37,059 nt of DNA from a virus. This document shows positions 3,903 through 37,059 of the stretch, piece by piece. Location: IMG/VR virus record IMGVR_UViG_3300046007_002748, positions 1-37,059 of that record, one strand, 5' to 3'. The notes below the pieces were generated by a model. The model worked only from the letters and a program-made list of their open reading frames with translations, did no database searches and was not told the origin of the DNA. The position numbers and the translations under genes were made by a program. The first letter of the stretch is position 1, and each line of letters starts with the position of its first letter.

Positions 3903-5141
3903 ATGTCTATTAGGATTGGTGGACAAATCGTTTTTGACAATAAAGGAAATCCTATTTTAGGAAATTTACAAATTGCTCCGGCTTCACCATCGGCGGGAAC
4001 AATGTTTTTTAATGAAAATACTAGAACGGTCCAAGGTTGGAATGGAACGTCGTGGGTCGATTTAACCAGCACCAGCACTTCAAGTATATTCGGATGGGGA
4101 CTTAATACTTCTGGGCAATTAGGTAATAATACTGCAACTAACGCCAGCAGTCCAGTTTCTCTTGTTGGTGGATTTACCGATTGGATGCAAGTGGATCGAA
4201 ATGTAGCAATTCGTTCGAACGGGACCGCGTGGTGCTGGGGTCTTGCAACCAGTGGAAGGCTTGGCGACAACACTACTACACTTAAAAGCAGTCCGGTATC
4301 AACTCTCACCTCTTATGTTTTTAGTCAAGTTTCAGGCCATGCATCGCATGCTGGTGGTGTAAGAACAAATGGGTCTGTGGCCATGTGGGGCTTAAACACA
4401 TATGGAAGATTAGGTGATAGCAGTACAACTAGTAGAAGAACCCCTAATCCAATATCTGGAGGTCTTACTGATTTTGTGGAAATCAGTTGCGGATACGCTT
4501 TCACTTTAGGATTAAGATCGAATGGGGTTTTAATGGCTTGGGGTCAAGGAAGTTTTTTTCAAATAGGTGACGGCTTTAATAGTAATAGAACAAGCCCAGT
4601 AAGCGTCTCTGGAGGTATCACCAATTGGATTCAGCCAGCGGCTGGATATAGACATGCCGCTGCGCTTAGAGGAAATGGAAACATATATTGTTGGGGCATA
4701 AACACATATGGAAGGTTAGGTGACGGCACCCTGTCAAGTAGATCAACTCCCACAGCATTATTAGGAAATAATAATGATTGGGTTCAAGTTGCATCGGGAC
4801 AAGAGCACGGAGCCGCAGTTAAAGGAAATGGGACTTTATGGTGTTGGGGGAGAAACCATCAAGGACAACTTGGAAATAACAGTACAACAGACACTTCAAG
4901 CCCTGTTCAAGTCGCGGGTTCAATAACTAATTGGGCGCAAGTTTCTTGTGGTACATCTCACACCGGCGGCCTTACATCCGATGGAAAAATTTATTGTTGG
5001 GGAAGAAACGATCAAGGACAACTTGGAGACAATACTACATCTTCCAGATCGAGTCCAGTTTTAACAGTTGGTGGTGTAACAAATTGGGTTCAAATTGAGT
5101 GTAATGGTTCTTTAAATACTTTTGCTCTTAGATCGCTTTGA
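3903..5141 (+). CDS. RCC1-repeat tail fibre protein A (seven-bladed propeller)
   Basis: 412 residues. The N-terminal ~60 residues carry a short fibre-attachment type motif (PASPSAGTMFFN then VQGWNGTSWVDL), as in many phage fibre proteins. The rest is seven RCC1-type repeats, recognisable by WGLNTSGQLGNN, WGLATSGRLGDN, WGLNTYGRLGDS, WGQGSFFQIGDG, WGINTYGRLGDG, WGRNHQGQLGNN and WGRNDQGQLGDN. Seven repeats are what a closed RCC1 beta-propeller needs. In eukaryotes RCC1 acts on Ran/chromatin; in this setting the propeller is most likely a receptor-binding or fibre-tip domain (inference). First of three such genes; the second follows after 9 bases. Confidence 0.85.
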   Translation: MSIRIGGQIVFDNKGNPILGNLQIAPASPSAGTMFFNENTRTVQGWNGTSWVDLTSTSTSSIFGWGLNTSGQLGNNTATNASSPVSLVGGFTDWMQVDRNVAIRSNGTAWCWGLATSGRLGDNTTTLKSSPVSTLTSYVFSQVSGHASHAGGVRTNGSVAMWGLNTYGRLGDSSTTSRRTPNPISGGLTDFVEISCGYAFTLGLRSNGVLMAWGQGSFFQIGDGFNSNRTSPVSVSGGITNWIQPAAGYRHAAALRGNGNIYCWGINTYGRLGDGTLSSRSTPTALLGNNNDWVQVASGQEHGAAVKGNGTLWCWGRNHQGQLGNNSTTDTSSPVQVAGSITNWAQVSCGTSHTGGLTSDGKIYCWGRNDQGQLGDNTTSSRSSPVLTVGGVTNWVQIECNGSLNTFALRSL

Positions 5142-5150
5142 GGCGAAAAA

Positions 5151-6428
5151 ATGTCAATTCAAATTAATGGTACTACGGTAATAAATGCCCCTGATAGAAG
5201 ATTTATATTAGGATCAACGGCTCCAGCCTCGCCTGTACAGGGACATGTAAGATATAACTCTTCAACAAATAAATTTGAAGTTTACAATGGAACTTCATGG
5301 GTAGTTTTTCCTGCCGAAGTTATACCACCGCCAGCCTGGTCTTGGGGTAGAAATGTTGATGGATCATTAGGTGATAATACAACATCCGATAAAAGCAGTC
5401 CAATTTCTATTGTGGGCGGATTTACTGATTGGATACAGATCACTTCTGGGAATGATGCCAGTGCAGGGATTAGGGCAAATGGAACTGCTTGGTCATGGGG
5501 TTCGGTGAATTTTTTTGGTGTATTGGGTGACAACACAACCACGGCCAAAAGTAGTCCAGTGTCAGTTGTCGGAGGCTTTACAGATTGGGTTCAAATTTCA
5601 GTTGGTATATACGCCCATGCCGCAGCAGTTAGAGCAAACGGAACCGCGTGGTGTTGGGGAGATAACGCTCATGGACAATTAGGAACAAATAATTACATAA
5701 CAGCGAGTAGCCCAGTATCAGTTGTTGGTGGTTTTACAGATTGGGTTCAAATAAGTACAGGTGAACGTCACACCGCAGCAGTTAGAGCAAACGGAACCGC
5801 ATGGTGTTGGGGAAGAAATAACGCCGGACAGCTTGGGGATGGATCTCTTGCAAACCGATTAAGTCCTGTTTCCGTTGTTGGTGGTTTTACCGACTGGGTA
5901 CAAATTAGTGCTGGATGGCAACATACTGGTGCCGTAAGAGCCTCGGGCACTGCATGGTGTTGGGGATATAACGCTAACGGACAACTTGGAGATAATAGCA
6001 CGACTACTCGAAGCAGTCCAGTTTCAATACTCAGTGCAGGAGTACCAAGATGGGTTCAAATAAGCACCGGTGGCAAACTTTCGTCTGGAAGTCATTCTGG
6101 CGCAATAAAAAGCGACGGAACCGCATGGTGTTGGGGTTTCAACGGGGCAGGAAGATTAGGCGATAATACTACGACTGCCAGAAGCAGCCCCGTTTCTGTT
6201 GTTGGAGGATTTTTTGATTGGGTTCAAATTTCAACGGGAGCAAGGCAAACTGTAGCAATTAGAGCGAATGGAACAGCTTGGGGGTGGGGAAGTAATGACA
6301 GTGGAAGACTGGGCAACAATTCGTCTGGTAGCTATCACTCAAGCCCTATTTCCGTTGTTGGCGGCTTTACTGATTGGGTGAATATATCATCAGTATATAG
6401 GCACACGGTTGCGTTAAGAGCATTGTAA
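5151..6428 (+). CDS. RCC1-repeat tail fibre protein B (seven-bladed propeller)
   Basis: 425 residues. The N-terminus has the same fibre-type motif as its neighbour (PASPVQGHVRYN, FEVYNGTSWVVF). It is followed by seven RCC1 repeats with the core W(S/C/G)WG...LG(D/N)N; a GGFTDWVQIS linker recurs between blades. It shares long, nearly identical DNA stretches with the third RCC1 gene, so the two have exchanged sequence or duplicated recently. A GAGG ribosome binding site overlaps the stop of the preceding gene. Probable virion surface protein that contacts the host; the ligand is unknown. Confidence 0.85.
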   Translation: MSIQINGTTVINAPDRRFILGSTAPASPVQGHVRYNSSTNKFEVYNGTSWVVFPAEVIPPPAWSWGRNVDGSLGDNTTSDKSSPISIVGGFTDWIQITSGNDASAGIRANGTAWSWGSVNFFGVLGDNTTTAKSSPVSVVGGFTDWVQISVGIYAHAAAVRANGTAWCWGDNAHGQLGTNNYITASSPVSVVGGFTDWVQISTGERHTAAVRANGTAWCWGRNNAGQLGDGSLANRLSPVSVVGGFTDWVQISAGWQHTGAVRASGTAWCWGYNANGQLGDNSTTTRSSPVSILSAGVPRWVQISTGGKLSSGSHSGAIKSDGTAWCWGFNGAGRLGDNTTTARSSPVSVVGGFFDWVQISTGARQTVAIRANGTAWGWGSNDSGRLGNNSSGSYHSSPISVVGGFTDWVNISSVYRHTVALRAL

Positions 6429-6457
6429 AAAACATACAATATAGGGGGGTGTGTTAA

Positions 6458-7120
6458 ATGTATGTAGTAAAATATAAACAAATGGTAGTTATGGGTATAA
6501 TTCCATGGAATAGTCAATATATCATCGATGTTTTTAGAGTGAGATATCGAAAAACTGTTGAAGTTCCATATGATGAACCTAGTATTGAATCATTTCCTCT
6601 TAAATTGAGTGATGATATTACAATTTATCCTGCCGAAGAAAATCGAGAAAGAGAAATTAATCCTCTTTTTGAGGCTTATCACGGTCCCACGTGGGAATTT
6701 TTAGAAGAAAAAGTCATCGCCCATTATACAGTAGTTCAACATAATCTTGATACGATTAAAGAAAATTATCGTAAAATAGCGGCGAATTTACGATACGCCA
6801 AAGAAATTTCTGGAACCAGTATAAAAATAGACGAGGTTGATTATTTTATCAGAACATTTAGAGATGAAAAATATAAGTATGTCGAAAAATTGAGTGCGCT
6901 AGAAGATAATCAGACAATTAATTGGAAATTTGGCGACAACAACTGGAAAACGTTAACAAAATTTCAACTTTTGTCTATATTACGCGCTATAGATGCTCAT
7001 GTACAATCATCATTCGATTATGAATTAAATCTTAACAATCAAATTAATTCTGCGCAAAGCGTTGAAGAATTGATGAACATTGAAGAACTAAATAAACCTC
7101 AATTAATGTTATCATTATAA
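6458..7120 (+). CDS. DUF4376-like fibre-associated protein
   Basis: 220 residues, charged, predicted largely helical in its middle part. The C-terminal ~65 residues follow the DUF4376 pattern common in phage tail fibre accessory proteins: a Trp-containing start, LTKFQLLSILRAIDAHVQ, a Phe-x-x-Glu element, then INSAQSVEELMNIEEL. The N-terminal part is not recognised. A very strong purine-rich ribosome binding site (AGGGGGG, around 6443) precedes the ATG, suggesting high expression. It sits between two RCC1 fibre genes, 29 bases after one and 12 before the next, so it may be a fibre assembly factor or small structural partner. The family link is from motif memory only. Confidence 0.6.
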   Translation: MYVVKYKQMVVMGIIPWNSQYIIDVFRVRYRKTVEVPYDEPSIESFPLKLSDDITIYPAEENREREINPLFEAYHGPTWEFLEEKVIAHYTVVQHNLDTIKENYRKIAANLRYAKEISGTSIKIDEVDYFIRTFRDEKYKYVEKLSALEDNQTINWKFGDNNWKTLTKFQLLSILRAIDAHVQSSFDYELNLNNQINSAQSVEELMNIEELNKPQLMLSL

Positions 7121-7132
7121 AGAGGGTGTATA

Positions 7133-8509
7133 ATGCCATTTAACGTTTATTACGGTATAACTAGAATAACCGATGAGCGGGTATTGCGTTTGCCGGCAAA
7201 CTCTACTGGGCAGAGGCCCATCTATCCTTATCCTGGTCAACTATTTTTTGATACTACATTAAACAAATTGGTAGTTTGGGATGGTGGTAATTGGAGAGAA
7301 TCCGCCATATCTACTTTAAACACAGTTCCTCTTTGGTCATGGGGGGCCGCAAATAATGGGCAATTAGGAAACAATCAAGCAGTTACTGGAAGATCAAGTC
7401 CAGGTAGTGTTGTGGGAGGTATTGCAGATTGGACGCAAGTTTCTACTGGCGCCGGAGGTTGGGTTTCGTCGTTAAGAGCAAATGGCGGAATTTTAAATTG
7501 GGGGGCAGCAAGTCTAGGTCAAAATGGAACTGGTGCCGGTGGTGCGCGAAGTAGCCCAACTTCAATTGCCGGAGCAACCACTACTGGATGGTTTCAAGTT
7601 GCCGCCGGCTATAATCATGGAGTAGCCTTACGCTTTACAACAACGAGTTTATATAGTCAGGTCTGGTCTTGGGGAGGTAACAATTTCGGTCAACATGGCA
7701 CTGGATCTCTCAGCGCCAGCACAAGTAGTCCAACCATCACAAATAATTTTGGAGATACTATACAAGTTAGCGCCGGATATATGACAAGTGGTTTTCTTCG
7801 CTCTGGCATAGATGGTGGAATACTCATGACTTGTGGTGTGAATTTTTATGGTCAATTGGGTGACGGCACAACAAATTCTCGATCTGCTCCAACTACTGTT
7901 GTGGGGGGTTTTACAAATTGGACACAAGTGTCTATGGGCCATAATTTTTCTGCTGGCGTCAGAGCAAACGGAACCGCATGGTGTTGGGGTATAAATGCCT
8001 ACGGACAATTAGGTAATAACACTACAACTAACGCCAGCAGTCCAGTATCGGTTGTAGGAGGCTTTACAGATTGGGTTCAAATAGCCACCGGCGGAAACCG
8101 AACTATATTCAGCTCTTTAATTCCTCAATTTACTGGCGCAATAAGAGGAAACGGAACCGCATGGTGTTGGGGTAGAAATAACAATGGACAGCTTGGAAAT
8201 AATGCCACAACAAACGTTTCAAGTCCTGTTTCCGTTGTTGGTGGCTTTACCGACTGGGTTCAAATCTCCTGTGGAGATTCAACAACTATGGCAGTGCGTG
8301 CCAATGGAACAGCTTGGGGATGGGGGTCAAATGCTAATGGTGAAATAGGAGACAACACGACCACGGCTAGAAGTAGTCCAGTATCAGTTGTTGGTGGTTT
8401 TACGGATTGGGTTCAAATTTCAACCGGAAGAGCTTTAACTATTGGAGTGCGTGGACAGCCAAGAAGCACTACCATACGACAAAATAATTTAAGAAATACA
8501 TTTGAATAA
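7133..8509 (+). CDS. RCC1-repeat tail fibre protein C (seven-bladed propeller)
   Basis: 458 residues. The N-terminus shares the fibre-type motif (PYPGQLFFDTTLNKLVVWDG) but opens with a different lead sequence (MPFNVYYGITRITDERVLRL). Seven RCC1 blades follow. The early ones are divergent (LNWGAASLGQNGTG, WSWGGNNFGQHGTG, MTCGVNFYGQLGDG); the last three are close to those of the second RCC1 protein. The divergent first half and shared second half suggest a mosaic. An AGAGGGTG ribosome binding site precedes the ATG. Last gene of the adsorption block; a promoter-like region follows. Confidence 0.85.
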   Translation: MPFNVYYGITRITDERVLRLPANSTGQRPIYPYPGQLFFDTTLNKLVVWDGGNWRESAISTLNTVPLWSWGAANNGQLGNNQAVTGRSSPGSVVGGIADWTQVSTGAGGWVSSLRANGGILNWGAASLGQNGTGAGGARSSPTSIAGATTTGWFQVAAGYNHGVALRFTTTSLYSQVWSWGGNNFGQHGTGSLSASTSSPTITNNFGDTIQVSAGYMTSGFLRSGIDGGILMTCGVNFYGQLGDGTTNSRSAPTTVVGGFTNWTQVSMGHNFSAGVRANGTAWCWGINAYGQLGNNTTTNASSPVSVVGGFTDWVQIATGGNRTIFSSLIPQFTGAIRGNGTAWCWGRNNNGQLGNNATTNVSSPVSVVGGFTDWVQISCGDSTTMAVRANGTAWGWGSNANGEIGDNTTTARSSPVSVVGGFTDWVQISTGRALTIGVRGQPRSTTIRQNNLRNTFE

Positions 8510-8541: not shown

Positions 8542-8562
8542 ATATGTTTGAGGAGAGTGATT

Positions 8563-9120
8563 GTGAAAATAAACATTGGTGCCGGAACTAACAAAAAAAA
8601 CGATTATATTTCTATAGATTTTGACCGAGAAACAAATCCCGATTTTGTTTTAGACTTAGAAAAAGATAAACTACCATTCGATGACAATTCAGTAGAAGCC
8701 GTTATTGCACATCATGTTTTAGAACATATGGGAGAAGGATATTTTCATTGTCTAAAAGAATTATATCGAGTTTGTAAGCATGGGGCAATCATAGACATTA
8801 GAGTTCCTCATCCTAGACATGATACATATTTGGCAGACCCCACGCATCGTAGACCTATCACGCCGATGGGTTTGCAATTATTCAGCAAAAAAGCAAATAA
8901 ATTATATAAAGAACAGAATTTTGCATCATCTAGACTTGGTGATTTTTATAATGTAGATTTTGAAATCTTAAATTTTAATTATATTCCAGATGAGCAAAGT
9001 TTAATTACACTATCGAATTTATCTGAGAGTGAACTAGAAGAATATGCTAAACAACACAATAATATTATTCTTGAAATTAATATACAATTAATTGTGGTTA
9101 AAGATGAACAATATCAATGA
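8563..9120 (+). CDS. Class I SAM-dependent methyltransferase
   Basis: About 185 residues. I chose the GTG start at 8563 because GAGGAGAG (8550-8557) is well placed before it and the protein then begins MKINIGAGT, the methyltransferase motif I. A TTG start at 8548 would put the Shine-Dalgarno inside the gene. Motif I (NIGAGTNKKNDYISIDFD), an acidic DLEKDKLPFDDNSVEAVIA post-I/motif II stretch and HHVLEHMG (motif III region) are typical of type-11 SAM methyltransferases; PHPRHDTYLADPTHRRPIT follows. The substrate cannot be read, but the neighbours (glycosyltransferase, sulfotransferase) suggest a sugar or surface-glycan substrate. Its 3' end overlaps the next start by 17 bases, implying coupled translation. 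Confidence 0.75.
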   Translation: MKINIGAGTNKKNDYISIDFDRETNPDFVLDLEKDKLPFDDNSVEAVIAHHVLEHMGEGYFHCLKELYRVCKHGAIIDIRVPHPRHDTYLADPTHRRPITPMGLQLFSKKANKLYKEQNFASSRLGDFYNVDFEILNFNYIPDEQSLITLSNLSESELEEYAKQHNNIILEINIQLIVVKDEQYQ

Positions 9121-10465
9121 AATATTTTCACCATTACATTTAAAAACTACAATTTTAGATTTAATAGATGATGAAAAAAGAGAACTTGCATGGGAGCTAA
9201 TTGATCACTATTATTCTAAAGCATATGCACTGAAACATTTTGATGTGCTAGGATATGTCGCACACAAAGCAGATAAAAGAGATACATATCTAAAATGTGC
9301 TGAGGCAATATATTGTTTATGTGAAAATTCAGAACAATTATATATTGCGAGAGCAAATTTATACAAAGCATATAATTTAATGAATTATCCCGAAAAGGCG
9401 ATATTTTATATCGAAAAAAATCTTGAAATAACGCCAGATGATTTTGAAACCTTGTGTCATAAGGCATCGAATCTTTCTCTTATGGGAAAGAAAAAAGAAT
9501 CCGAAGAATTATTAGAATATGTAGAAAAATTATACCCCGAAAAAAAAGATAAGTTTGATTCTGGATTTTCTGGAAAATATTTGAGAGAAGGAAAAACTTC
9601 TAAAGGACTGCTTTCTTTTTTAGAGGCTGAAATTAAAGAACATTCTCTATTCGAAAAACAGTTGAAGATGAAAAAGTGGAATGGCGTAATAACTCCAGGA
9701 AAAATTTTATATGTTGATGCGTGCGGAGGCATAGGAGATCAAATAATAAACATAAGATTTTTTGAAAAAATTAAAAAATATGGAATGAGACCAATATTAG
9801 TTTCATCGGATACAAAGTTTTATCGTGATATAAATTCATTATTGGTGAGGCATGGTCACGAAATATTGACAGACAAAATTCTAATTGACAGAACACAAAA
9901 ATGGACGAGTATGATGACTCTTCCAGGATACTTAGGATTAAAGGAACATGAATTATGGAGTGGAACATACTTAACACCACTCAAAAATCCTAAAAATAAA
10001 ATTCCTGGAACCAAACCTAAAATAGGAATAAAATGTTCTGGTAATCCGTATTTTGCTCAAGATGAATATAGAAAAATTCCTATAGAAAAAATGCTAAAAA
10101 TATTACCAAAAGAGGCGGATATTTTTTATATTGATGAAAAACCGATAGATCATCCTGGCGTCATTGATTTATCGCATATGATAAACTCTTGGGAAGACAC
10201 GCTTGATATTATTGATCAAATGGATTGTATAGTTTCATCGTGTACAAGTTTGGTTCATGCTGCGGCCGCCATAGGAAAAACAACTTTTGTTGCAGTTCCA
10301 ATAGCAGAATATTATATTTGGACAACCACAAAAAAAGATGGATCGTCTCCATGGCACGGAAACAATCTCTTTGTGTCACGACAGACAAAGGTCAGAGATT
10401 GGGAAGAGCCACTTAACGTGATTGAAAATAAATTAAAAGATTTTTTAAGGATAAATTATGGATAA
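9104..10465 (+). CDS. TPR-containing glycosyltransferase (GT9/heptosyltransferase-like)
   Basis: 453 residues from the ATG at 9104; an in-frame TTG 12 bases upstream is less likely. Residues ~40-190 are helical with TPR-like repeats (YIARANLYKAYNLMNYPEKA; ETLCHKASNLSLMGKKKESE). Residues ~200-450 resemble GT-B glycosyltransferases of the heptosyltransferase type: VDACGGIGDQIINIRFF for an N-terminal nucleotide-fold loop and, near the C-terminus, DCIVSSCTSLVHAAAAIGK followed by a PWHGNNLFVSRQ stretch ending in DW. TPR plus such a domain is a known architecture in phages and bacteria. It would transfer a sugar from a nucleotide donor; acceptor and sugar are unknown. It overlaps the sulfotransferase start by 8 bases. 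Confidence 0.72.
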   Translation: MNNINEIFSPLHLKTTILDLIDDEKRELAWELIDHYYSKAYALKHFDVLGYVAHKADKRDTYLKCAEAIYCLCENSEQLYIARANLYKAYNLMNYPEKAIFYIEKNLEITPDDFETLCHKASNLSLMGKKKESEELLEYVEKLYPEKKDKFDSGFSGKYLREGKTSKGLLSFLEAEIKEHSLFEKQLKMKKWNGVITPGKILYVDACGGIGDQIINIRFFEKIKKYGMRPILVSSDTKFYRDINSLLVRHGHEILTDKILIDRTQKWTSMMTLPGYLGLKEHELWSGTYLTPLKNPKNKIPGTKPKIGIKCSGNPYFAQDEYRKIPIEKMLKILPKEADIFYIDEKPIDHPGVIDLSHMINSWEDTLDIIDQMDCIVSSCTSLVHAAAAIGKTTFVAVPIAEYYIWTTTKKDGSSPWHGNNLFVSRQTKVRDWEEPLNVIENKLKDFLRINYG

Positions 10466-11234
10466 AAAATTTCATTTCATAACTGGACTGCCTAGATCAG
10501 GATCCACTTTATTAAGTTCGATACTTAAACAAAATCCTAAATTTCATGCTTCGATAACAGACCCTCTAGCTAATTTATTTAAAGGTGTTATAGAAGTAAG
10601 TCAAGAAGGCCCTGGAATAAAATACGAAGTTCCAGAAAAAAGAAGATTTAATATTGCGAAGTCCATATTTGATGGCTATTATCAAGATGTCGATAAACCT
10701 GTAATTTTTAACACGAATCGAGCATGGACTATATTAACACCACAGATTGACGCTATTTTTCCTGAATCAAAACTTATTATTTGTGTGAGAGATATTGTCT
10801 GGATTTTAGATTCTTTTGAACTTGCTCACAGAAAAAATCCTTTAAGTATAAGCACGGTTACGGGAGGCCTTTCGGGCACAGTTTATTCTAGAGCAGATGG
10901 GCTAATGTTAGAAACTGGAGTTGTTGGATTTCCATACATAGGTGTAAAACAAGCAATAACTAGTTCAGAAAAACATAAATGTATCATTATAGAGTATGAT
11001 AATTTATGTAAAAATCCAGAATTAGTAGTAAAATCAATTTACAACTTCATAGATGAGCCATATTACAAACACGATTTCAATAATGTTGAGGCTTCGTGGG
11101 ATGAATATGATTCAGAAATAGGAATAAAACTTCATCATGTGAAAAAAAATGTTCAATACACAGAAAGAAAAACAATTCTTCCTCCCGACATTATTCAAAA
11201 ATATAAAAATATGGAAGTTTGGAGATTTCAATAA
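10458..11234 (+). CDS. PAPS-dependent sulfotransferase
   Basis: 258 residues. The N-terminal ITGLPRSGSTLLSSIL carries the 5'-phosphosulfate binding loop (PRSGST, residues 12-17). KLIICVRDIVWILDSFE (around 105-121) fits the 3'-phosphate binding motif with Arg111 and Ser119. Length is normal for a single-domain cytosolic-type sulfotransferase. The reaction is transfer of sulfate from 3'-phosphoadenosine-5'-phosphosulfate to a hydroxyl or amino group of a carbohydrate, protein or small molecule. The same operon encodes an APS-kinase-like protein that could supply PAPS and a glycosyltransferase that could supply an acceptor. It overlaps the glycosyltransferase end by 8 bases. Confidence 0.8.
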   Translation: MDKKFHFITGLPRSGSTLLSSILKQNPKFHASITDPLANLFKGVIEVSQEGPGIKYEVPEKRRFNIAKSIFDGYYQDVDKPVIFNTNRAWTILTPQIDAIFPESKLIICVRDIVWILDSFELAHRKNPLSISTVTGGLSGTVYSRADGLMLETGVVGFPYIGVKQAITSSEKHKCIIIEYDNLCKNPELVVKSIYNFIDEPYYKHDFNNVEASWDEYDSEIGIKLHHVKKNVQYTERKTILPPDIIQKYKNMEVWRFQ

Positions 11235-11251
11235 TTATAGGATTTGAGATT

Positions 11252-12202
11252 ATGAGTAGATCAATGGTTAAATTAATTCATGCTGATAATTTTTTTCCTG
11301 GAGACGAAGCAAACTCATTGAGAAAAATGGCCGAAAATTTTCAATTTGTTGAAACATGGCATGGAAAGGAAATGTTAAACTTTAATTTAATTTTTCCTGA
11401 CAGCGAGCAAATTTTTCACAAGGTATTGGGCGAAAGAGTTACTGTAGATACAAAACGATCTGGTGTAATTAGAAAACCTTTTCACAATTTAATTCATTTT
11501 GAAGAATTTGATTCTACAGAGGAATGGTGTTTCATGGTTGCTTTAGAGCCAACCACAGTAAATTTTTGGTATCATGTTGACGATACAAATAAAATGGGCG
11601 AGTTTGCAAAACCAAATGCAAAAAGTGCGCTAGAAGAAACAAATTTTAATTATCGAAATTTATTCGAATGGAAAATACACACTAATATTTTACTGGAAAC
11701 AAACCAATGTCTATTTTTCAGACCTTGGGTATTTCATTCTCTAGAAGAAGGCATGATACAATACTATCGACTACTTTCCGATAATAAATTCAGAATTTTA
11801 GTTATGGGATTACCAGAATCTTCTAAAAATAAAGTTTCTGAAAAATTGAACGATTTATTTCAAAGTTCTTCTATTTTAAATTCTATGAAAGAAAGGATTA
11901 GTAATAAGGATATTGATTTCAGCGTCGATGGTCAAATGCGACATTGTTATCGAATGTTAAACTTAGCAAGAAACTCTGAAACAGGAGTTACCATAATTAA
12001 TATGGTATGCCCCCTACCTAAAATGAGGCAAATATTAAATCCTGATATTATAGTTTGGGTTAGCGACAAAAAAGAATCTAAATATCCAGAACTGAATGAA
12101 ATTTATGTTCCTCCAGTTTATTATGATATAGAATGCACTGATGATAGTGATGAAAGTATTCAAAAAATAGTTAAAAGAATCTTTTCTAAAAGGATAACGT
12201 GA
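11252..12202 (+). CDS. Fusion: double-stranded beta-helix (2OG-oxygenase-like) domain plus degenerate APS-kinase-like domain
   Basis: 316 residues from the ATG at 11252; a TTG at 11219 is also open but overlaps the sulfotransferase. Residues 1-175 resemble the jelly-roll oxygenase/cupin type: IHFEEF, FMVALEPTTVNFWYH, then NILLETNQCLFFRPWVFHSL. An H-x-E in place of the usual H-x-D makes iron binding uncertain. Residues 180-312 align by eye with the first domain of the next gene: GLPESSKNK against GLPGAGKTY, DFSVDGQMRHCYRM against DFSREGRIRQSIRM, CPLPKMR against APLPEMR, and a PPVYYDIECT end. The P-loop has lost its two glycines and the NADEVR segment is missing, so kinase activity is unlikely. 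It probably arose by duplication and fusion. The next gene starts 2 bases downstream. Confidence 0.6.
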   Translation: MSRSMVKLIHADNFFPGDEANSLRKMAENFQFVETWHGKEMLNFNLIFPDSEQIFHKVLGERVTVDTKRSGVIRKPFHNLIHFEEFDSTEEWCFMVALEPTTVNFWYHVDDTNKMGEFAKPNAKSALEETNFNYRNLFEWKIHTNILLETNQCLFFRPWVFHSLEEGMIQYYRLLSDNKFRILVMGLPESSKNKVSEKLNDLFQSSSILNSMKERISNKDIDFSVDGQMRHCYRMLNLARNSETGVTIINMVCPLPKMRQILNPDIIVWVSDKKESKYPELNEIYVPPVYYDIECTDDSDESIQKIVKRIFSKRIT

Positions 12203-12203
12203 A

Positions 12204-13052
12204 ATGAAAAAAATCTTGATTATGGGTTTGCCAGGAGCGGGAAAAACATACTTTGCCGAAAGACTTAAAAAATTTCTTGAAGAAAACGGCACAATTCAAA
12301 ATCTATCTAGTATTAGACTTACTACGCTAGAAAGCGTACCTAGAAGTAATATTGTAAGTGTTCAGTGGTTCAATGCTGATGAAGTGAGAAAAAAATACAA
12401 TGATTGGGACTTCAGTAGAGAGGGTAGAATTCGACAAAGCATTCGCATGGCTGAGTTTGCGCTAACCTGTTCAGCCGACTATGTAATCTGCGATTTCGTT
12501 GCGCCATTACCAGAAATGCGACACAATTTCAAAGCAGATTGGACAATTTGGATTGATTCGATTGATGCGGGTAGATACGAAGATACCAATAAAGCTTTTG
12601 TTGCCCCCGACATTTATGATTTCAGAGTTACTGAACAGAATGCTGAGAAATGGGTTCCTTACGTCGGTGAAAGGATTCTAAAGAATCAAAGGCGTCCATC
12701 GTTTGATTGGAAAAAAGAAACTGTACAAATGCTTGGTCGCTGGCAGCCTTGGCATCCTGGACATCGTGCTTTGTTCGAACGTGCTTTATCTAAAACTGGA
12801 CAGGTGATTATTCAAATTCGAGACTGTCAAGGCTGGCAAGGAACAAACCCATTTGCCATAGAACAAGTCAAAAATTTCATTCGCAGAGACTTAGACCCTC
12901 TTTATCAAGGCCAATATGAAATTCAGGTCGTTCCTAATATTGTGAATATTACTTACGGTAGAGATGTCGGATATAAGATTGAGCAAGAAGTCTTTGATGA
13001 GTCTATTCACAGCATTTCTGCCACAAAAATAAGAAAGCAGATGGGAGTATAG
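12204..13052 (+). CDS. Adenylylsulfate (APS) kinase-like / nucleotidyltransferase bifunctional protein
   Basis: 282 residues in two domains. Residues 1 to ~165 are a P-loop kinase: Walker A GLPGAGKT (8-15), WFNADEVRKKY, DFSREGRIRQSIRMAEFA and DFVAPLPEMR, matching the order of APS-kinase motifs. Residues ~173-282 are a HxGH nucleotidyltransferase: GRWQPWHPGHRALFERAL (His184, His187) and a late ISATKIR motif (271-277) that closes the ATP site in this superfamily. APS kinase makes PAPS, the donor for the adjacent sulfotransferase. The second domain could act as ATP sulfurylase or as another adenylyl/cytidylyltransferase; its size and GRWQP motif look more like the NMN-adenylyltransferase type, so this remains open. 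End of the cassette; gene 13 follows after 49 bases. Confidence 0.7.
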   Translation: MKKILIMGLPGAGKTYFAERLKKFLEENGTIQNLSSIRLTTLESVPRSNIVSVQWFNADEVRKKYNDWDFSREGRIRQSIRMAEFALTCSADYVICDFVAPLPEMRHNFKADWTIWIDSIDAGRYEDTNKAFVAPDIYDFRVTEQNAEKWVPYVGERILKNQRRPSFDWKKETVQMLGRWQPWHPGHRALFERALSKTGQVIIQIRDCQGWQGTNPFAIEQVKNFIRRDLDPLYQGQYEIQVVPNIVNITYGRDVGYKIEQEVFDESIHSISATKIRKQMGV

Positions 13053-34814: not shown

Positions 34815-35565
34815 ACACTATCTCGAATATGTCAAAGACTGGACTGATCCGAACCCTAAACCAATTGTAGAACGTCAAGATAAATTTTTTGTTGTTCGTG
34901 ATGATTTGTTAGGTTATGGTAGCAAAGTTAGATTCATTGATTATCTTATCAAGAATGATCCCGCTGAAGAATGGGTATTCGGTGGTGCAAATAAAGTAGG
35001 TTGGGGTCCAATCTCTCTCACGCATGTTTGCAATAGATATGGAAAGAAAGCAACATTCTTCATGGCAAAAAGAGAAACACCTACATGGCATCAGCAACAA
35101 GTTTTAGATATGGGTGGAACAATTCACTGGGTTAATATGGGCATGTTAAATGTGACATTGGCAAGAGCAAAAGCATATTGTGAAGAAAGTCCTAACACAA
35201 GAAAAACTTTGCCGCTGGGTCTAGAACATCCTAGTGTGTTGGGTAGTATTATCAAGATTGCCAGAGAACTGCCTTGCGCCTCTGAGATAAGCGAGATTTG
35301 GACTGTTGCAAGCAGTGGCACGTTAAATCGCGGTCTGCAAATGGCCTTTCCTGATTTGCCCGCACACGCGGTACAAATAGGTCATAAGATGAATGAACGC
35401 GAGCTAGGCCGTGCTAAATTATATGTGTCGAAATACAAATTTGACAAAGAAGTAAAAGAGAACGAGAGGCCACCATACCCCTCTGAAATCTTTTACGATG
35501 CAAAGATTTGGACTTTCGTAAATGAACATGCAAAAGAAAACTCTTTAATATGGAATGTAGCATGA
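34792..35565 (+). CDS. PLP-dependent enzyme-like protein (ACC deaminase / D-cysteine desulfhydrase / TrpB fold)
   Basis: 257 residues from the ATG at 34792, chosen because GAGAGG is 7 bases upstream. The protein follows the fold-type II PLP pattern: FVVRDDLLGYGSKVRFIDYL (Lys of GSK at the position of the PLP lysine), WVFGGANKVGWGPISLTHVC like the GG-x-Q/A-N substrate loop, ATFFMAKRE, ASSGTLNRGLQMA like the glycine-rich phosphate loop, and YDAKIWTFV near the end. It is shorter than cellular ACC deaminases (~330) and the phosphate loop is altered, so activity is uncertain. Substrate unknown. It overlaps both neighbours. Confidence 0.55.
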   Translation: MTNLLTPEHYLEYVKDWTDPNPKPIVERQDKFFVVRDDLLGYGSKVRFIDYLIKNDPAEEWVFGGANKVGWGPISLTHVCNRYGKKATFFMAKRETPTWHQQQVLDMGGTIHWVNMGMLNVTLARAKAYCEESPNTRKTLPLGLEHPSVLGSIIKIARELPCASEISEIWTVASSGTLNRGLQMAFPDLPAHAVQIGHKMNERELGRAKLYVSKYKFDKEVKENERPPYPSEIFYDAKIWTFVNEHAKENSLIWNVA

Positions 35566-35918
35566 AACTTTCTGGCAAAATTAATAAGGGTTGGGGCCAT
35601 GAACTCATATGGGTCACCAACGATAAGTATTGCGGAAAGCTTTTGAAGTTCAATACAGGTGCGAAGTTCAGCATGCACTTTCATTCCGAGAAAGATGAAA
35701 CTTGGTATGTGTTGTCTGGTAAATTCTTAGTTAGACACATAGATACAAAGACTGCTAAAATACATGAAAACGAATTGAATGTTGGAAATGTCTGGAGAAA
35801 CGAACCGTTATTGCCACATCAACTAGAGTGCTTAGAAGAAGGCACAATTATTGAAGTTAGCACGCCAGATAGTGTTGAAGATAATTACAGAGTTTATCCT
35901 GGAGATAGTCAAAAATGA
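35562..35918 (+). CDS. Cupin-type sugar-phosphate isomerase-like protein
   Basis: 118 residues from the ATG at 35562 (ATGA overlap with the previous gene). GKINKGWGHELIWVTND is the WGHE start typical of mannose-6-phosphate isomerase-like cupins, followed by FSMHFHSEKDETWYVLSGKF with the H-x-H...E metal motif, PHQLECLEEGTIIEVSTPD, and a YRVYPGD end. Single-domain cupin; metal-dependent sugar isomerase or epimerase is likely. The neighbours activate heptose-like sugars, so a sugar phosphate substrate is plausible. The stop overlaps the next start by 4 bases. Confidence 0.75.
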   Translation: MKLSGKINKGWGHELIWVTNDKYCGKLLKFNTGAKFSMHFHSEKDETWYVLSGKFLVRHIDTKTAKIHENELNVGNVWRNEPLLPHQLECLEEGTIIEVSTPDSVEDNYRVYPGDSQK

Positions 35919-36301
35919 AAAAAATATTTGTGAACGGAACTTTTGATGTAGTGCATTTTGGTCATATCAGTTTACTGAAACATGCAAAAAGTCTAGGCGA
36001 TTATTTACTAGTTGCAATTGATTCTGATATCAGAGTTAAATCATTGAAGGGTGAAAGCCGACCAATCAATAGTCTATTTGAAAGAATGACATTGATTAGA
36101 AATTTAAAATGGGTTGATGATGTCGTTGCTTTTGGTACAGACGAAGAATTAGAATCCATTATCTCATCGTATGAGCCAGACATTACGCTGCGTGGGTCCG
36201 ATCACAAAAATGCAAAAGTGCCTCACGGCGTCATTCAATTTTTTCCAAGGCTCAACACATATTCATCGACAAGCGAAATTGAAAAAATCAAAAAACTATG
36301 A
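35915..36301 (+). CDS. HldE/RfaE C-terminal-like sugar nucleotidyltransferase
   Basis: 128 residues. NGTFDVVHFGHISLLKHA holds the H-x-G-H catalytic motif. DYLLVAIDSDIRVKSLKGES and RPINSLFERMTLIRNLKWVD correspond to the nucleotide-binding and RP motifs of the ADP-heptose synthase nucleotidyltransferase domain, and LRGSDHK resembles the family's KGGDY. In bacteria this domain adenylylates heptose-1-phosphate for LPS core synthesis. A glycerol-3-phosphate cytidylyltransferase role is a less likely alternative. Here it is a separate gene, upstream of the kinase (4-base overlap), the reverse of the fused HldE order. Confidence 0.8.
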   Translation: MKKIFVNGTFDVVHFGHISLLKHAKSLGDYLLVAIDSDIRVKSLKGESRPINSLFERMTLIRNLKWVDDVVAFGTDEELESIISSYEPDITLRGSDHKNAKVPHGVIQFFPRLNTYSSTSEIEKIKKL

Positions 36302-37056
36302 GTAGAATTCTTTTGGTTGGTGATATCTGTTTAGATGTCTATCATTATGGAACATGTTCGAGACTTTCGCCTGAAGCACCAGTGCCTATCATGGACTATA
36401 AATTCAGTAAAGAATTTACAGGCATGGCATTCAATGTGTATCGAAACCTAAAGGCGTTCGATAACACAATTGATTTTGTGCATGGACCATTCTCGAAAAA
36501 AGAAAGATATATTGACATTCGAACAAGTCATCAACTACTCAGAATCGACACCAAGAGCTATGAAAGCGAACAGGTTGTTTTTCCTGTTGATAAATTTCTG
36601 CGGAATTATGATGCCATAGTCATATCAGACTATGATAAAGGCTTTGTTACCGAGGAACTTATTTGCCAAATCAAAGAGCGATGGCAGAATAAACCAATCT
36701 TCGTGGACACAAAGAAAAAGAACTTAAGCGTGTATAGTGGTTGCATTGTTAAGATAAATGAGTTAGAATATAATGAATCGACTGGTCATGAATTTCCAAA
36801 AGAGTTGATTGTCACACTAGGGGCAGATGGTGCAAAGAGAGCAGACAAACACTATGAAGCACCCAGTGTTTCTGTACATGATGTGACTGGTGCGGGGGAT
36901 GTTTTTCTTGCGGTTCTGTCTTCAGTGTATCTCGATACTGAAGATATGGACTATGCAATACGGTGTGCAATTAAGCTATCTACAGAATCAGTAAAACACT
37001 TTGGATCATATACTTTAACAGAGAAAGATATACATGAACATATTGATTACTGGTAA
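36298..37056 (+). CDS. HldE/RfaE N-terminal-like PfkB sugar kinase, compact
   Basis: 252 residues, PfkB family. The start RILLVGDICLDVYHYGTCSR and LSPEAPVPIMDY closely match heptose-7-phosphate kinases (HldE N-domain), and DVTGAGDVFLAVLSSVY is the C-terminal anion-hole/catalytic motif with its Asp. KINELEYNEST and VTLGADGAKR are also family-like. Cellular kinase domains are ~310-320 residues, so ~60 are missing, mainly in the lid region. It would phosphorylate the sugar that the preceding enzyme activates. The stop codon is 3 bases from the window end, so downstream genes of the pathway could follow. Confidence 0.82.
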   Translation: MSRILLVGDICLDVYHYGTCSRLSPEAPVPIMDYKFSKEFTGMAFNVYRNLKAFDNTIDFVHGPFSKKERYIDIRTSHQLLRIDTKSYESEQVVFPVDKFLRNYDAIVISDYDKGFVTEELICQIKERWQNKPIFVDTKKKNLSVYSGCIVKINELEYNESTGHEFPKELIVTLGADGAKRADKHYEAPSVSVHDVTGAGDVFLAVLSSVYLDTEDMDYAIRCAIKLSTESVKHFGSYTLTEKDIHEHIDYW

Positions 37057-37059
37057 CAA

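Follow-up and report, generated by a model that had tools for sequence, protein, structure and literature searches.

We describe here a phage gene, at positions 11252..12202 (+ strand) of a 37,059-base IMG/VR virus record analysed in full (the window), which joins a domain resembling the Fe(II)/2-oxoglutarate (2OG) oxygenases to a degenerate adenosine 5'-phosphosulfate (APS) kinase-like domain. Both folds are already known; what appears to be new is the joining of such an oxygenase to a conserved pseudo-APS-kinase. The window carries T4-like virion genes, and its large terminase is ~49% identical to the terminases of Synechococcus phage DSL-LC02 and of Methylophilales and Pelagibacter myophages. 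The open reading frame picked out by a first-pass annotation of the bare sequence is real: the ATG at 11252 has a suitably spaced Shine-Dalgarno-like sequence, close relatives have ATG, GTG or TTG at the same site, and the same fusion recurs in other phages among the IMG/VR contigs, with 62-84% identity over the full length in the nearest of them. The product has 316 amino acids, and residue numbers here start at 11252; the alignments A1-A7 start at the ATG at 11264, giving numbers four lower. An AlphaFold2 (AF2) model of the whole fusion (17-sequence alignment, pLDDT 82.7, pTM 0.73) served as the structural check by which the first-pass annotation could have been refuted; the annotation passed it, the model retrieving with Foldseek both an oxygenase and an APS-kinase fold, one per half.

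The N-terminal domain (residues 1-178; 11252..11785, +) is modelled as a run of jelly-roll-type strands. Strand order and Foldseek matches identify it as a double-stranded beta-helix, and the oxygenase-like 'beta-helix' originally proposed for this region is correct in that sense. The matches are to 2OG oxygenases, including ALKBH6 (E 4e-6, prob 1.00, TMt 0.42), NO66, MINA53, KanJ and many cyanophage 2OG-Fe(II) oxygenases. Such enzymes are common in T4-like cyanophages, occurring in 14 of 16 genomes (PMC3037559). Profile scans of IMG/VR recovered 61 loci with the domain, 40 of them non-redundant, and in all 40 the presumed Fe(II) triad is invariant, both in its first part, H82-x-E84 (11495..11503, +), and in the distal metal histidine, H162 (11735..11737, +). 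Eleven residues beyond H162 lies R173 (11768..11770, +), the presumed 2-oxoglutarate-binding residue, which is on the strand modelled at 165-172 and is basic in every relative (Arg in 36/40, Lys in 4/40); we take its position to be that of the corresponding residue in AlkB and the prolyl hydroxylases. Since the H-x-E...H triad is complete, the basic residue is of the 2OG type and the fold matches agree, the domain is probably an active Fe(II)/2OG oxygenase, and one that would belong to an undescribed family.

The domain thus shares with known Fe(II)/2OG oxygenases (ALKBH6, NO66/MINA53, KanJ and the cyanophage enzymes) the double-stranded beta-helix, the H-x-D/E...H motif and a basic residue past the distal His. 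It differs from them in matching no family model, and no individual solved oxygenase overlaps with it in structure more than modestly, as the ALKBH6 value indicates. Residues 1-178 have no match among Pfam, PHROGs or NCBIfam models; NO66 and MINA53 are fold matches, yet Pfam gives no JmjC match. Searches of PDB sequences with the whole protein and with an N-domain profile returned nothing useful, a scan of bacterial and archaeal genomes found no relative of the domain, and none was found in cultured phages, the mycobacteriophage matches being weak (E 0.6). The best viral Foldseek match is an uncharacterised phage protein, 41% identical, that is only 164 amino acids long, and therefore the domain also exists alone.

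The C-terminal half (residues 181-316; 11792..12199, +) is an APS-kinase-fold pseudokinase domain. Its alignment with the N-terminal domain of the next gene's product, which had been noticed from the sequence, is borne out by BLASTP (E 1e-16, 25% identity) and by profile-profile comparison (E 4e-28, 99.8%), and the half also matches a PHROG annotated 'kinase' (E 8e-8) and, by profile, the APS kinase 2yvu (E 9e-5). Foldseek returns the APS kinases 4rfv, 5cb8, 1d6j and 2ofw with prob 1.00, in agreement with the fold assigned earlier, and no Pfam or NCBIfam APS-kinase model matches the fusion. The catalytic P-loop is gone, as the first-pass annotation had claimed: the Walker A position, aligned with the neighbour and with other kinase domains, reads GLPESSKN (residues 186-193; 11807..11830, +) against GLPGAGKT in the neighbour. 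The NADEVR stretch, however, which was also said to be lost, is not deleted but reads NSMKER, with M212 (11885..11887, +) in place of the catalytic acid (the D of NADEVR or DGDNVR) and the Arg kept. This Arg and the D-x-D-F/Y-S/T, G..R...R and PL..R motifs are largely retained. Compared with APS kinase proper (CysC, TIGR00455/PF01583), the domain therefore has the fold and the [D/N]xxxxR, DFS and SP/PL..R landmarks but is without the Walker A motif, the catalytic acid and the lid segment, and no family model fires.

Across the 40 non-redundant loci the oxygenase domain stands alone in 23, is fused to a pseudokinase in 12 and to a kinase domain with an intact Walker A in 3, and is joined once to RCC1 repeats and once to a YkgJ-like tail; the scan patterns were taken from conserved N-domain stretches, and architectures in which this domain has diverged may be missing from these counts. 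The RCC1 fusion (L060 5872-7461, one contig) joins the oxygenase domain directly to repeats recognised by Pfam, while the other (L073 6001-6864) has a Cys-rich, CxxCxxCC-like tail that was judged YkgJ-like by eye. Walker A is lost in 12 of the 15 fusions with a kinase-like domain, and the acid is gone in the same 12. All of these degenerate members lack the Gly before the P-loop Lys and nearly all lack the Ser/Thr after it; the Lys position itself is basic (K or R) in every fusion. Two of the remaining fusions, L056 and L057, have both an intact Walker A (GRPGQGKT) and an intact acid (Glu), and the third, L058, has kept Walker A (GLPHSGKS) but lost the acid.

The fused C-terminal domains form a single clade with 100/100 support and a long stem (1.83), separate from the clade of the kinase domains encoded next door, and the N-domain tree groups the fusions (SH-aLRT 80) and places the intact-kinase fusions together (95). 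Parsimony requires one change for the P-loop loss. Taken together, these sequence comparisons are best explained by one old fusion event and one later loss of the P-loop, and they place that loss within the fused lineage, in which L056 and L057 are still intact. The proposed origin of the domain, by tandem duplication of the neighbour's kinase domain followed by decay, does not survive this analysis, given the separate clade and a dN/dS of 0.10-0.24 (where dS is measurable, that is, unsaturated) that indicates purifying selection on the C-terminal domain. The same clade also led us to discard a recent tandem copy of the gene at 12204 as its source.

We tentatively favour, with somewhat less than even confidence, a reading of the protein as a tail- or glycan-modifying oxygenase carrying a non-catalytic APS-kinase-like domain for ligand sensing or docking. 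The oxygenase would hydroxylate a partner encoded in the tail/glycan gene cluster, the likeliest being a tail protein with RCC1 repeats or a glycan that it carries, and the hydroxylation would make or alter a group to be decorated by the sulfotransferase, glycosyltransferases and methyltransferase of the cluster. Because the ATP-gripping and catalytic residues are lost, yet selection keeps the domain, the C-terminal half is probably a sensor or dock rather than a kinase. It would no longer transfer phosphate, and may either bind a nucleotide or sulfonucleotide ligand or dock the enzyme to the sulfation machinery, thereby switching or positioning the oxygenase. The scaffold role and the link to 3'-phosphoadenosine 5'-phosphosulfate (PAPS) suggested at the outset are plausible as putative assignments.

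Each half of this proposal has a precedent. In the ATP sulfurylase of Penicillium chrysogenum, PAPS acts through a non-catalytic APS-kinase-like domain (PMC3734648; PMC4220642). There, too, a degenerate domain of the APS-kinase fold forms the C-terminal part of a fusion with another enzyme, although the partner is ATP sulfurylase in the fungus and an oxygenase in the phage, and PAPS binding, shown in the fungal protein, is only putative here. In vitro, the human 2OG hydroxylase JMJD5 modifies an Arg of an RCCD1 peptide (PMC5862942), and so also links a 2OG oxygenase to an RCC1-type protein; the parallel is an analogy, the comparison with the phage domain extending to the shared oxygenase fold.

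The gene neighbourhoods point in the same direction. In the window, the sulfotransferase gene that had been noted close to the fusion (Sulfotransfer_3; 10458..11234, +) is directly upstream of it, and it is preceded by two further conserved neighbours, a tetratricopeptide repeat (TPR)/glycosyltransferase-like protein with no confident Pfam match (9092..10465, +) and an S-adenosylmethionine methyltransferase (8548..9120, +). The candidate substrates are the RCC1-repeat tail proteins encoded within 3903..8509 (+; 3903-5138, 5151-6425 and 7133-8506), which match Pfam RCC1/WD40_RLD with E down to 5e-72. RCC1-repeat proteins reportedly number eleven in the jumbo phage phAPEC6, where their function is unknown (PMC7247149). 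Around the stand-alone oxygenase genes, RCC1-type tail genes are present in the surrounding DNA examined at 22 of 23 loci, immediately upstream at 16 and immediately downstream at 14, and a TPR/glycosyltransferase-like gene (22/23), a methyltransferase (21/23) and a sulfotransferase (18/23) are also present. A metal-chelating-type protein of PF03692 is near 12 of the 23 (e.g. L053 8353-8733).

The fusions differ among themselves in their surroundings. In clade A, the window's set, a kinase-nucleotidyltransferase gene like that next to the fusion is nearby at 5/5 non-redundant loci, always within a few genes downstream and immediately downstream at 3/5, and an Mrp gene at 0/5. At the ten loci of clade B and the intact-kinase fusions there is no kinase-nucleotidyltransferase gene nearby, and at 10/10 an Mrp/ApbC-like ATPase (NUBPL, PF10609; iron-sulfur-carrier-like, with CxxC) is encoded immediately upstream (e.g. 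L020 185-940, L056 5157-6020). This ATPase is never found beside the stand-alone oxygenase domain at its 23 loci. That genes for iron handling (Mrp, YkgJ) should accompany an iron-dependent oxygenase would make biological sense. Four clade-B contigs of 181-329 kb, which may be incomplete, have a sulfotransferase but no kinase-nucleotidyltransferase elsewhere. A separate stretch resembling a kinase occurs in a fifth contig of this clade (L025, 159 kb); it is 50% identical to that of the window's neighbour and contains one in-frame TGA (L097 43507-43857).

Several observations weigh against the favoured reading. In the C-terminal domain Gln replaces the canonical APS-binding Arg found in the CysC motif 'FSxxDR', and the APS-kinase lid segment is absent; a sulfonucleotide ligand is therefore not assured, and we do not claim that the full APS-binding pocket is conserved. 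In clade B the fused domain adjoins the Mrp-type ATPase without a kinase partner nearby, and a single role may not fit all members. The proximity to RCC1 genes could simply mean that the tail region is hypervariable and gathers enzymes. A more specific version of the proposal, in which the pseudo-APS-kinase senses PAPS or a nucleotide and gates the hydroxylation of RCC1-repeat tail proteins by the oxygenase, which in turn enables phage-encoded sulfation or glycosylation of the virion, strikes us as quite unlikely when taken as a whole.

The gene following the fusion after a 1-base gap (12204..13052, +) encodes two domains, one APS-kinase-like with an intact P-loop, the other an NMNAT-like nucleotidyltransferase carrying the motifs WHPGH and ISATKIR. 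Against the apsK model the product reaches 17 bits (cut-off 138.7) and can be called only APS-kinase-like; the CysC lid segment is absent from it. Its fold matches for the kinase domain include 1i2d, the P. chrysogenum ATP sulfurylase. The neighbour may supply the sulfotransferase with PAPS. Its model is weaker than that of the fusion (pLDDT 69.6, the nucleotidyltransferase half being poor) and supports the APS-kinase fold for the first domain only, and so does not establish the product as a phage PAPS synthetase. The protein may be an unusual enzyme, either PAPS-synthetase-like or of another nucleotide-activating kind. Its relatives in cultured phages are only five, in Stenotrophomonas, Xanthomonas and Clavibacter phages. 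The 'kinase' family phrog_10255 (Stenotrophomonas phages Suzuki, Bhz60 and DLP6, Clavibacter phage 33 and Xanthomonas phage AhaSv) represents the neighbour's kinase lineage and, more remotely, that of the fused domain; its members have an intact kinase followed by a nucleotidyltransferase domain and are without the oxygenase domain. An Fe(II) oxygenase gene slightly upstream of the DLP6 kinase has no detectable kinship to the N-terminal domain described here.

Other explanations of the fusion differ from this proposal in what they ask of each half. The oxygenase might act instead on a small molecule, such as a nucleotide-activated sugar or glycan precursor, with the C-terminal domain carrying the substrate. 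The fold matches include KanJ, an oxygenase that tailors an antibiotic, and in L008 the fusion and the kinase-nucleotidyltransferase are separated by sugar-nucleotide genes (an rfaE-like nucleotidyltransferase and kinase, a cupin and an epimerase), which also occur near others, but at most loci such genes are not adjacent, and the stand-alone domain is tied more tightly to RCC1 tail genes, with one relative fused to RCC1 repeats; we consider a small-molecule substrate somewhat unlikely. APS kinases are dimers, and the pseudokinase could be the partner subunit of the kinase-nucleotidyltransferase next door, in which case the heterodimer would tether the oxygenase to the neighbour. The 1-base gap in the window and the downstream position of the partner gene throughout clade A would suit such an arrangement. 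Clade-B fusions have no kinase-nucleotidyltransferase nearby, nor do the four long, possibly incomplete contigs elsewhere, and a partnership of this kind, unlikely in our judgement, cannot therefore cover the family beyond clade A.

The remaining alternatives concern the state of the C-terminal domain itself. Residual kinase activity, with an unusual use of ATP despite the altered P-loop, would be in keeping with the basic residue at the Lys position in every fusion and with the Walker A and acid retained in L056 and L057; the joint loss of the acid and the preceding Gly in 12/12 degenerate members, together with the following Ser/Thr in nearly all, makes it very doubtful. A decaying pseudogene remnant, left as a read-through tandem copy of the neighbour's kinase domain, would account for the 25% identity and the eroded P-loop, but the frame is open in all relatives, the dN/dS values indicate purifying selection, and the fused domains constitute a single old clade that stands apart from the neighbour. 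We reject this explanation as having next to no chance of being correct.

The statement in the first-pass annotation that no protein of this architecture had been described still stands: the fusion was not found in Pfam, PHROGs, NCBIfam, PDB sequences, cultured phages or the bacterial and archaeal genome scan, and a combination of oxygenase and pseudo-APS-kinase was undescribed in a literature search that had most subscription papers outside its reach. To our knowledge, phages have rarely yielded a pseudoenzyme for which living relatives retain the intact counterpart in the same fusion. A single clade here spans kinase sites that are intact (L056, L057), half-lost (L058) and lost (the window's lineage), and the loss of catalysis under continued selection is therefore directly testable. 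Were the link to tail proteins true, it would provide evidence that virion proteins are the substrates of an oxygenase dedicated to them, point to a function for the RCC1-repeat proteins that are numerous in some large phages, and explain the occurrence of sulfotransferase and glycosyltransferase genes among tail genes. Gated tail decoration, if true, would amount to a regulated system of post-translational modification of the virion.

The fusion has no defence match in PADLOC. Directly downstream of the clade-B fusions is a gene for a small conserved protein (~76-116 amino acids, 'KIYVIDRNGRMHL'; e.g. L025 7906-8136). An ADP-heptose-like set of genes, comprising an rfaE-like nucleotidyltransferase, a PfkB kinase and a lyxose-isomerase-like cupin, is present at 35550-37059 of the window and at 2233-4453 of L008, where it includes an epimerase and is inserted between the fusion and the kinase-nucleotidyltransferase gene.
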